Shown one piece after another: positions 45,310 to 49,529 of a stretch of DNA of 64,000 bases. A program made the position numbers and the translations under genes. Source of the stretch: Yinghuangia seranimata (GTDB lineage: Bacteria; Actinomycetota; Actinomycetes; Streptomycetales; Streptomycetaceae); NCBI RefSeq assembly GCF_029953285.1, contig NZ_JASAOI010000054.1:1-64000 (forward strand), read 5' to 3'. Position 1 is the first letter of the stretch. Every line of letters starts with the position of its first letter. The notes beneath the pieces are model-generated. The model was not told the DNA's origin, made no database searches, and saw nothing but the letters and a program-made list of their open reading frames with translations.

Positions 45310-47601
45310 TCAGGCGAACAGCCCGCGCAGGGGCGCCGAGTTCGCGGCCTTCAGCTCGTCGAGACCGACGGTGAACTGCCCCTGGATCTCCAGGGCGTCG
45401 CCGTCGACCACGCCGATGCGGGCGACCGGCAGGTGCCGCACGCGGCACATGTCGGTGAACCGCAGCTCCTCGCTGCGCGGGACCGCGACGACGGCCCGGC
45501 CGGCCGACTCGCTGAACAGCGCGACGAACGGGTCCAGCTCCTCGGGGAGCACGATCCGCGCGCCGTTGCCGCCGCGCAGGCACGCCTCGACGAGGGCCTG
45601 CGCGAGGCCGCCGTCGGCGAGGTCGTGCGCCGCGTCGACCATGCCGTCGCGCGAGCCGGCGATCAGCACCTCGGCGAGCAGCCGCTCGCGCTCGAGGTCG
45701 ACCTTCGGCGGCAGGCCGCCGAGGTGGTTGTGCACGACGTCGGCCCACACCGACCCCGACAGCTCCTCACGGGTGTCGCCGAGGAGCAGGATGATCTGCC
45801 CCTCCTCGCGGAACCCGATGGGGGTGCGCCGGGTGACGTCGTCGATGACGCCGAGCACGCCGACCACCGGGGTCGGGTGGATGGCGATCTCGCCGGTCTG
45901 GTTGTAGAACGACACGTTGCCGCCGGTCACCGGGGTGCCAAGCACCTGGCAGGCGTCGGCGAGCCCGCGGCACGCCTCGGCGAACTGCCACATGACGCCC
46001 GGGTCCTCGGGCGAGCCGAAGTTGAGGCAGTCGGTGACCGCCAGCGGGCGGGCGCCGGTGGTGGCGACGTTGCGGTACGCCTCGGCGAGCGCCAGCTGGG
46101 CACCGGTGTACGGGTCGAGCTTGCAGAACCGCCCGTTGCCGTCGGTGGACACCGCGACGCCGAGGTTGGTCTCCTCGTCGACGCGGATCATGCCGGCGTC
46201 CTCGGGCTGCGCGAGCACCGTGTTGCCGAGCACGTACCGGTCGTACTGGTCGGTGATCCACGACTTGTCGGCCAGGTTGGGCGAGCCGGTGACCGCGAGC
46301 AGCGCGGCGCGCAGCTCGTCGCCGGTCCGCGGGCGCGGGAGCTGCTCGGAGCCGTCGGCCTGCAGCGCGTCCTGCCACGCGGGGCGCGCGATCGGGCGCT
46401 CGTAGACCGGGCCCTCGTGCGCGACGGTGCGCGGCGGGACGTCGACGATCTGCTCGCCGTGCCAGAAGATCTCCAGCCGGTCGCCGTCGGTGACCTCGCC
46501 GATGACCGTCGCGATGACGTCCCACTTGGCGCAGATCTCCAGGAAGCGTTCGACCTTCCCGGGCTCGACGATGGCGCACATGCGCTCCTGCGACTCGCTC
46601 ATGAGGATCTCCTCGGGAGCGAGCGTGGCGTCGCGCAGCGGCACCTTGTCGAGGTCGACACGCATGCCGCCGGAGCCGGCCGAGGCGAGCTCGGAGGTGG
46701 CGCACGACAGGCCCGCGCCGCCGAGGTCCTGGATGCCGGTGACCAGGTCCTCGGCGAAGACCTCGAGCGTGCACTCGATGAGCAGCTTCTCCTGGAACGG
46801 GTCGCCGACCTGGACCGCGGGGCGCTTGGCCGGGCCGTCCGCGTCGAACGTCTCGGAGGCGAGCACCGACACGCCGCCGATGCCGTCGCCGCCGGTGCGG
46901 GCGCCGTACAGGATCACCAGGTTGCCGGTGCCGGACGCCTTCGCCAGGTGGATGTCCTCGTGCTTCATGACGCCCACGCACAGCGCGTTGACCAGCGGGT
47001 TGCCCTGGTAGCACGGGTCGAAGACGACCTCGCCGCCGATGTTCGGCAGGCCGAGGCAGTTGCCGTAGCCGCCGATGCCGGAGACGACGCCGGGCAGCAC
47101 GCGGCGGGTGTCCGGGTGGTCGGCCGCGCCGAACCGCAGCGGGTCCATGACCGCGACCGGGCGGGCGCCCATCGCGAGGATGTCGCGGACGATGCCGCCG
47201 ATGCCGGTGGCCGCGCCCTGGTAGGGCTCGACGTAGCTCGGGTGGTTGTGCGACTCGACCTTGAAGGTCACCGCGTAGCCCTGGCCGACGTCGACGACGC
47301 CGGCGTTCTCGCCGATGCCGACGAGCATGGCGTCGGACGCGGGGGCCTTCTCGCCGAACTGGCGCAGGTGCACCTTGCTCGACTTGTACGAGCAGTGCTC
47401 CGACCACATGACCGAGTACATCGCCAGCTCGGAGCTGGTCGGGCGGCGGTCGAGGATCGTGACGATGCGCTGGTACTCGTCGTCCTTGAGCCCGAGCTCC
47501 GTGTACGGCTGACCGAAAGTGTGCGCGCCGACCGGTCCGTCCTGGAGCCAGCCGCGGTCCTTCGAGTCGTCCTGGGCCTTGACGACCGTGTCGAGACTCA
47601 T
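45310..47601 (-). CDS. purL: FGAM synthase subunit PurL
   Basis: A 763-residue catalytic subunit of phosphoribosylformylglycinamidine synthase, the small type that needs PurQ and PurS. Signatures: [19 protein letters not shown] (substrate and ATP loop; HCSYK), [51 protein letters not shown] 47601 overlaps the purQ stop (ATGA). Full-length for this type (about 740-760). Product FGAM goes to PurM. Confidence 0.97.
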
Positions 47602-48275
47602 GCGCCTACCAACTTCTTCAGTACGGAGGTGAAGAACCCGAGGCCGTCCGTGGTGGGGCCGGTCAGCGGCTCCACGGCGTGCTCGGGGTGCGGCATCAGG
47701 CCGACGACGTTGCCCGCCGCGTTGCTGATCCCGGCGATGTCGCGGCGCGAACCGTTCGGGTTGAGCTCGAGGTAGCGGGCGACGACCCGGCCCTCCGCCT
47801 CCAGCATGTCGAGCGTGCGCTCGTCGGCGACGTAGCCGCCCTCGCCGTTCTTGAGCGGGACGACGATCTCCTGGCCGGCCTCGTAGGACGAGGTCCACGC
47901 GGTGTCGGAGGTCTCGATCCGCAGCCGCTGGTCGCGGCAGATGAAGTGGAGGTGGTCGTTGCGGGTCAGGGCGCCCGGCAGCAGGTGCGACTCGCAAAGG
48001 ATCTGGAAGCCGTTGCAGATGCCGAGCACGGGGAGCCCGCCCTGCGCCTCGGAGATGATCGTCTCCATGACCGGCGAGAACCGCGAGATCGCGCCGCAGC
48101 GCAGGTAGTCGCCGTAGCTGAAGCCACCGGGGAGGACGACGCCGTCGACGCCGTGCAGGCTGCTGTCACCGTGCCACAGGGCGACCGGCTCGGCCCCGGC
48201 GATGCGGACCGCGCGCTGCGCGTCCCGGTCGTCGAGGGAGCCGGGGAAGGTGACGACACCGATCCGAGCGGTCAC
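47598..48275 (-). CDS. purQ: FGAM synthase glutaminase subunit PurQ
   Basis: A 225-residue class I glutaminase that supplies ammonia to PurL. Triad: Cys in [13 protein letters not shown], His and Glu in [11 protein letters not shown] near the C-terminus. GTG 48275 overlaps the purS stop (GTGA). Confidence 0.97.
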
Positions 48276-48520
48276 TGGTCCTCGACCCTTACGGTGAAGT
48301 CTTCGATGACGGTGTTGGCCAGGAAGGTCTCCGCGGCTTCGCGAATGCGCGCGAGTGCGGCATCGTCGACCGGGCCTTCGACTTCGAGTTCGAATCGCTT
48401 GCCCTGCCGGACATCGCTGATCCCGGAGAATCCGAGGCGCGGCAGTGCACGCTGCACGGCCTGGCCCTGGGGATCGAGAATTTCCGGCTTGAGCATGACG
48501 TCGACGACGACGCGTGCCAC
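48272..48520 (-). CDS. purS: FGAM synthase subunit PurS
   Basis: An 82-residue bridging subunit ([20 protein letters not shown]...FEGPVDD-type...[12 protein letters not shown]) that joins PurQ to PurL for ammonia transfer. GTG 48520 chosen: it matches the MARVVVDV family start and has GGGAG 5 bases upstream. First gene of purSQL. Confidence 0.95.
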
Positions 48521-49130
48521 GCGCACTCCCACTGTGCTGGTGCGGGCCGGTCCACCGTTGCGGGTCTGCAGCGGTGCGGCCCTGCTGCTGGATCTCGGGG
48601 CCGGGTAGGACCCCCTCTTCGGCAGGCCCCAGCCTACCGGGGCGGCTTCCGTGCCCCCTGCGCGGAGGTCGGGTTATCCACAGCGGGCCGGTTGTCCACA
48701 GGCTGTGGGCTGTGGACAACCGGGATCCGGGCAGCGCGGCGACGCCGTTCAGATGATCCGATCACCCGGTTCGACCTGCGTGAATGTCAACAAATTGCCG
48801 AGTCGTCGAGGGTGACACGTGCACCGGGCGGCGCACTCACCCACAGGAGGCGCGAGTTTTCCACAGGGTGTGGACAACACCGGTCCACACGCTCCGCACA
48901 CCGGCGCGTACCGCGCGCACACGGCTCGCGGCCGACGGGCCGCCCGCCCCCGCGCCACACCGGGGGGCGCGACCCGCGCGGGGAGCGCGCAAGGGGCGTG
49001 CGTTCCGCTTCCCGTGGGCCGGCAGACCTTGACGGCAACACGCCACGCCCGCGAATATCGGCAACCCGGGGAATTGAATGTCCGGGCAGTAAATTATCGG
49101 AAGCGGCGCCAAGATCGCACCGACTCAACC
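48521..49130. other. Intergenic region between purS and lsr2
   Basis: About 610 bases with no convincing gene. It holds the upstream region of minus-strand purSQL, the DnaA-box cluster (48674-48877), and GC-rich spacer to ~49020, then an AT-rich slope to the lsr2 promoter. Confidence 0.6.
48674..48877. promoter_or_regulatory. Cluster of five DnaA-box 9-mers
   Basis: TTATCCACA at 48674-48682 (+), TTGTCCACA at 48692-48700 (+) and 48711-48719 (-), TTTTCCACA at 48857-48865 (+), TTGTCCACA at 48869-48877 (-). TTATCCACA is the general consensus and TTGTCCACA the form preferred in Streptomyces. Neither dnaA nor dnaN is near, so this is not an ordinary oriC. Confidence 0.65.
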
Positions 49131-49132
49131 GT

Positions 49133-49160
49133 TTGTCGCCTCATGTCGCGCGCTTATACT
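49133..49160 (+). promoter_or_regulatory. lsr2 promoter
   Basis: -35 TTGTCG (49133-49138) and -10 TATACT (49155-49160) with a 16-base spacer, about 50 bases before the lsr2 start. The area is AT-rich, which is also what Lsr2 binds, so autoregulation is possible. Confidence 0.6.
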
Positions 49161-49211: not shown

Positions 49212-49529
49212 ATGGCCCAGCGCGTAGTGGTGACGCTGCAAGACGACATCGACGGCAGCGCGGCGGCGGAGACCATCCGCTTCGGCCTCGACGGCAAGTC
49301 GTACGAAATCGACCTGTCCGAGGACCACGCCCGCCAGATGCGTGAACTGCTGGGTCGCTACGTCGACGCCGCGCGCCGCACCGCCAAGTCGGGCAAGCCT
49401 TTCAAGCAGACCACCGTCGCGCCCGACCCGGCCGCGGTCCGCGCGTGGGCCCGTGCGCAGGGCATGGACGTCCCCACCCGCGGGCGTATTCCGAGCAGCA
49501 TCTACCGGGAATTCGAAGCCGCGAACTGA
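49212..49529 (+). CDS. lsr2: Lsr2 family nucleoid-associated protein
   Basis: A 105-residue xenogeneic silencer. N-terminal dimerisation half (MAQRVVVTLQDDIDGSAAAETIRFGLDGKSYEIDL, in part MAQRVVVTLQDDIDGS) and C-terminal DNA-binding half ending AWARAQGMDVPTRGRIPSSI, with the R-G-R AT-hook-like motif that reads the minor groove of AT-rich DNA. GGAAGGA lies 8 bases before ATG. Represses acquired AT-rich genes, including many antibiotic clusters in Streptomyces. Confidence 0.96.
   Translation: MAQRVVVTLQDDIDGSAAAETIRFGLDGKSYEIDLSEDHARQMRELLGRYVDAARRTAKSGKPFKQTTVAPDPAAVRAWARAQGMDVPTRGRIPSSIYREFEAAN

Follow-up and report, generated by a model that had tools for sequence, protein, structure and literature searches.

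A conserved DnaA-box cluster between purS and an lsrL-type gene in Yinghuangia and Embleya, a candidate DnaA titration site

Features of the purS-lsrL gap

The window analysed, a 64,000-nucleotide stretch of Yinghuangia seranimata DNA, contains five exact matches to TTNTCCACA within 204 bp (48674-48877) of the intergenic gap between purS and a divergent gene of the Lsr2 family. All five DnaA-box 9-mers listed by the initial annotation were re-found as exact, intergenic matches of the composition claimed. The features of the gap and its flanks are as follows.

After purQ: purL, identified from position and sequence, without a profile scan
47598-48278: purQ, GATase match in a profile scan
48272..48532, minus strand: purS, PF02700 match, followed by purQ and then purL
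48631..48636, minus strand: likely purS -10 hexamer, TAGGCT in the minus-strand reading (inferred), 37 bp from box 1
48674..48682, plus strand: DnaA box 1, TTATCCACA, exact 9-mer, identical in 7/7 genomes
48692..48700, plus strand: DnaA box 2, TTGTCCACA, 18 bp after box 1, exact 9-mer, identical in 7/7 genomes
48711..48719, minus strand: DnaA box 3, TTGTCCACA, in 3/3 Yinghuangia, none in Embleya
48786..48795, no strand assigned: conserved A+T-rich element GTCAAYAAAT between both box groups, minus strand TTGAC
48857..48865, plus strand: DnaA box 4, TTTTCCACA (TTATCCACA or TTGTCCACA in relatives), varying at position 3 alone in 7 genomes
48869..48877, minus strand: DnaA box 5, TTGTCCACA, tail to tail with box 4 across a 3-bp gap, exact in 2/3 Yinghuangia and with one change in the remaining one, degenerate in Embleya
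49133..49160, plus strand: likely lsrL promoter, TTGTCG-16-TATACT, consensus match only, partly conserved
49212..49529, plus strand: lsrL-type Lsr2 paralog, PF11774 and PF23359, divergent from purS

The neighbouring genes had been named purS and lsr2. The first name stands and the second gene does belong to the Lsr2 family, but it is probably the lsrL paralog, because a second Lsr2-family gene, 45% identical to the purS-side copy, was found on contig C94 of Y. seranimata and because the purS-lsrL order is kept in all 80 of the 80 Streptomycetaceae loci examined. The LsrL protein of Y. seranimata is 90% identical to a Yinghuangia soli protein. Deletion of lsrL in S. venezuelae has little effect (PMC6584129).

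A genome-wide count of box clusters, proposed as a check in the initial annotation, showed that exact boxes are nowhere denser in the 9.8-Mb Y. seranimata genome than in the purS-lsrL group; apart from this group, three or more exact boxes within 300 bp occur only upstream of dnaB. The claim that even one box is rare by chance held only in part, since single TTNTCCACA 9-mers occur at background frequency genome-wide (65, against 58 for a reversed control pattern), whereas their grouping is extreme: approximately 1e-11 windows with at least five boxes in 204 bp are expected under a uniform Poisson model, and a chance origin of the grouping was therefore rejected.

Conservation among relatives

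Conservation was assessed in three Yinghuangia and four Embleya genomes, which represent two lineages, Embleya being the sister genus of Yinghuangia (PMC13152386). No part of the gap is better conserved in these seven genomes than the boxes, the flanks and gap lengths having diverged; 33 of the 45 box columns are invariant, as against 151 of the 634 columns in the rest of the gap. When the box mask, which includes the box 3 missing in Embleya, was shifted circularly, none of the 678 shifts reached 33 invariant columns (best shift, 32). Substitutions in box 4 are confined to position 3, which is the position at which TTATCCACA and TTGTCCACA, the canonical high-affinity DnaA boxes, differ (PMC4285127). 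Because the seven genomes represent two lineages, this conservation is evidence for selection at the level of the boxes without amounting to many independent events. The alignment supports the view that these are real DnaA boxes under purifying selection. Embleya retains three exact boxes and one that is degenerate or lost, and the cluster may be weak there.

At 77 other loci that share the purS-lsrL order no exact box was found, and in further genomes examined only a single TTTTCCACA was present, in three genomes of one genus. The expectation that relatives with the same gene order keep the boxes was thus borne out in Yinghuangia and Embleya and failed in Streptomyces, Kitasatospora and Peterkaempfera. 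The element GTCAAYAAAT was found in every Yinghuangia and Embleya locus and in no other (10 of 110 gaps, all ten being copies from those genomes).

In the Y. seranimata window, boxes 2 and 3 together make up a perfect inverted repeat of 14 bp, the basis for reading the site as a structured RNA or terminator. This reading is scarcely credible, as boxes 1 and 2 are kept in Embleya although box 3 is missing there, and a scan found no terminator-like site.

Position relative to oriC

The placement of the cluster away from dnaA and dnaN, as initially annotated, was confirmed: dnaA of Y. seranimata lies on a separate contig, C31, and, this genome being fragmented, the distance to dnaA was taken from closed relatives, in which it is 230 kb (Yinghuangia G001) and 199 kb (Embleya G005). 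Within 250 kb of dnaA, G001 carries 19 exact boxes where 5.6 are expected, an enrichment. The distance to oriC is not independent evidence, because it is set by the conserved purS-lsrL position. Relative to the orientation of dnaA, G005 has lsrL on the same side as dnaB and G001 has it on the opposite side, a difference suggestive of an inversion around oriC. A second origin, or oriC itself, was rejected as an identity for the cluster, there being no dnaA nearby and the site not lying between dnaA and dnaN but 199-230 kb off in the closed relatives. A link with the secondary chromosome of Embleya was dropped, as the closed Yinghuangia is described with a single replicon (PMC13152386).

The dnaA-dnaN gap of Y. 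seranimata holds no exact box and 18 one-mismatch boxes, while those of the other two Yinghuangia and the two Embleya checked hold one or two exact boxes each; in Kutzneria this gap is likewise without an exact box (PMC4210621). Among the degenerate boxes of the Y. seranimata gap lies the palindrome CACTCGGTCGAGTG (L001:2921-2934), to which a 9/10 match occurs at the S. scabiei dnaA locus (L149:390); CACTCGTTCGAGTG is found close to box 3 in the closed Yinghuangia G001 (L004:1053). Two exact boxes with a near-exact one between them were also observed within the coding sequence of dnaA, ahead of the part for the ATPase domain (L001:1327-1361 on contig C31; also L151, L152 and L153). These intragenic boxes are present in Yinghuangia and Embleya and absent from the two Streptomyces checked, and they may reflect protein constraint.

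Comparison with known clusters and the titration reading

Origin-proximal DnaA-box clusters of Streptomyces coelicolor were reportedly described by Smulczyk-Krawczyszyn et al. in 2006, and we take those at dnaB, crgA and pheA to be H24, H69 and D78. Clusters of this type can repress untimely initiation in S. coelicolor (PMC4585315). The purS-lsrL cluster resembles them in having several closely spaced exact boxes, in an intergenic position, near oriC (230 kb in G001, 199 kb in G005) and outside the dnaA-dnaN gap, but it occupies a different locus. In S. scabiei, exact boxes occur at crgA, dnaB and serS-pheA, with Yinghuangia counterparts at crgA, at dnaB and near pheA; in Yinghuangia or Embleya the boxes lie at dnaB-MATE, at crgA-rhomboid and near pheA, with corresponding places in S. 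scabiei. Identity of the purS-lsrL cluster with any of these was rejected, since they are separate loci in the same genome or genus. Judged from sequence, purS-lsrL looks like an additional, lineage-specific fourth cluster, seen in Yinghuangia and Embleya alone of the genomes examined. Genera thus appear to differ in the DnaA-binding clusters that surround oriC, which offers a natural comparison for the weight of titration sites. Two further observations were made at the known clusters: an apparent intein interrupts dnaB at the Walker A lysine in Yinghuangia G001 (L158:1143-2300) but is absent from dnaB of Y. seranimata, and in Embleya G005 the box cluster on the pheA side is overlain by a gene that, by eye, resembles a phage antirepressor of the BRO/KilA-N type (L162:932-1762).

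The cluster is very probably bound by DnaA. A search for DnaA domain IV (PF08299) detected only a single protein in Y. seranimata, and one each in 50 of the 51 genomes searched. The geometry of boxes 4 and 5 (9+3+9) is that of a pair upstream of the organism's own dnaA (L001), the first box of which is degenerate (TATTCACAGGCTGTGGACAA); among the tail-to-tail pairs listed, the 3-bp gap is the second commonest (12/54), after 22 bp (21/54).

The reading preferred here, with moderate confidence, is that the gap is a DnaA-binding titration cluster of the D78 or datA kind, at which bound DnaA would also occupy DNA upstream of the purS promoter. We infer that DnaA would bind cooperatively at the 18-bp direct pair formed by boxes 1 and 2, with box 3 extending the assembly in Yinghuangia, and would also bind the tail-to-tail pair formed by boxes 4 and 5. 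The locus, copied soon after initiation and carrying high-affinity sites, would then take up DnaA and restrain re-initiation, as is reported of the S. coelicolor clusters, while bound DnaA would also cover the DNA just upstream of the purS promoter. The cluster is probably an extra sponge or a local DnaA control point, and sites of this kind are known from Streptomyces. The E. coli datA locus is likewise an intergenic DnaA-box cluster away from oriC and lowers the DnaA-ATP available; it uses IHF and promotes ATP hydrolysis (PMC10950094). Titration outside oriC, as initially suggested, emerges as the best-supported function, by analogy only, the exact cluster near oriC and the conserved boxes being in its favour.

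Box positions and the purS promoter

The likely purS -10 hexamer was assigned by comparison with TAGTCT in the gaps of Streptomyces and Kitasatospora (a similar CCCCAGACTACCGGGG in Kitasatospora). Box 1 lies 34-37 bp upstream of this predicted element in 7/7 genomes of the two lineages, although the sequence between them has diverged and other gap lengths vary. Titration alone does not need such a near-constant distance of boxes 1 and 2 from the likely -10, which argues against a pure sponge and is consistent with the boxes being chiefly a promoter element, at which DnaA bound to boxes 1-3 would activate or repress purSQL and link purine synthesis to DnaA level or nucleotide state, titration being incidental. 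The 17-18 bp TTRTCCACA pairs of the family, which mostly precede genes, also favour this. DnaA control of nucleotide genes has precedents in E. coli guaB and nrdAB; purS resembles these in having DnaA boxes near a (predicted) nucleotide-synthesis promoter and differs from them in the genes concerned and in box layout. However, boxes 4 and 5 are largely conserved too, at a distance of over 220 bp from the purS -10, the -10 is itself a predicted position, the lineages are two only, and relative to the gene the pair is inverted at purS compared with the DNA-uptake genes described below; a role chiefly in purS control is considered rather unlikely. The titration reading is tentatively favoured over it because the five boxes over 204 bp include the distant conserved pair and because the oriC-near clusters of S. 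coelicolor titrate; the two are compatible, and both can be true.

The link to purine synthesis proposed initially thus gains positional support from boxes 1-3, just upstream of the likely purS -10. The proposed link to Lsr2 is weak, the gene being probably lsrL and its likely promoter lying approximately 250 bp beyond box 5, the nearest box, at a variable distance. If DnaA affects transcription here, purS is therefore a better candidate than lsrL.

Box pairs at DNA-uptake genes

Direct pairs of TTRTCCACA were surveyed in 61 genomes of the family. Among the 150 pairs listed, in which Streptomyces is under-represented, the spacing is 17-18 bp in 79 and 12 bp in 31. The flanking DNA of most 17-18 bp pairs was examined; they recur in several genera upstream of comEA (SLBB and HHH_3), a CpaE/TadZ-like ATPase gene, ssb, yraN followed by comM, and a DUF6099 gene, and also upstream of a gene before mscL that resembles CpaB/RcpC by eye. 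In the DNA-uptake groups the first box is usually preceded, at a distance of 5-7 bp, by a CACTC-N4-GAGTG palindrome, with mean scores of 7.6-8.6 out of 10 against a shuffled mode of 5; the palindrome was picked after the sites had been viewed, so that the score is descriptive and not an independent test. Pairs of 17-18 bp, usually with the palindrome, were observed at L119, L136, L131, L168, L142, L205 and approximately 70 more loci, and in Y. seranimata at a tadZ-like gene (L249, contig C4). Three Embleya genomes carry an 18-bp box pair without the palindrome at a metallophosphatase-like gene (L172, L196 and L198). The pairs upstream of DNA-uptake genes across the Streptomycetaceae point to a candidate regulon of the competence type whose operator contains DnaA boxes.

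The DNA-uptake operator was defined in this analysis as the palindrome together with a 17-18 bp pair. Boxes 1 and 2 at purS have the pair (18 bp, direct), but no CACTC-N4-GAGTG palindrome precedes it, the score of 5-6/10 in the 7 loci being that of the shuffled background, and the purS pair was rejected as an operator of this type. The same result bears on a reading in which the 18-bp pair is the operator of a transcription factor other than DnaA, shared with comEA, ssb, yraN/comM, tadZ and the cpaB-like gene, its likeness to DnaA boxes being convergent. The dominance of the 17-18 bp spacing among the direct pairs listed is in line with such a factor, as is a two-mismatch search of Yinghuangia and Embleya, blind to gene identity, in which matches other than purS were mostly ssb, tadZ-like, comEA and cpaB-like loci. 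Against it, the palindrome of the DNA-uptake groups is missing at purS, the purS pair is accompanied by a tail-to-tail pair like that upstream of dnaA, and these genomes yielded no second protein with DnaA domain IV, although such a factor could use an unrelated DNA-binding domain; we regard another factor as improbable.

A wider hypothesis, which we hold to be doubtful, is that DnaA itself acts as a transcription factor through the 17-18 bp TTRTCCACA pair as a module, controlling DNA-uptake genes of the Streptomycetaceae (comEA, ssb, yraN/comM, tadZ and the cpaB-like gene), usually with the palindrome, and that the module was recruited before purS in Yinghuangia and Embleya, which would couple replication state to purine synthesis and DNA uptake. 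If DnaA does bind the family-wide 18-bp pair, replication initiation would be tied to DNA uptake in actinobacteria, in which the control of competence is little understood (PMC12849477, PMC8467076). The literature searched, which takes in a minority of subscription journals, yielded no account of DnaA boxes in competence promoters, and this does not prove novelty. In Micrococcus luteus, a CpaB/RcpC-type gene that lies beside an HTH protein was implicated in com gene expression (PMC8467076), which fits the set of DNA-uptake genes identified here.
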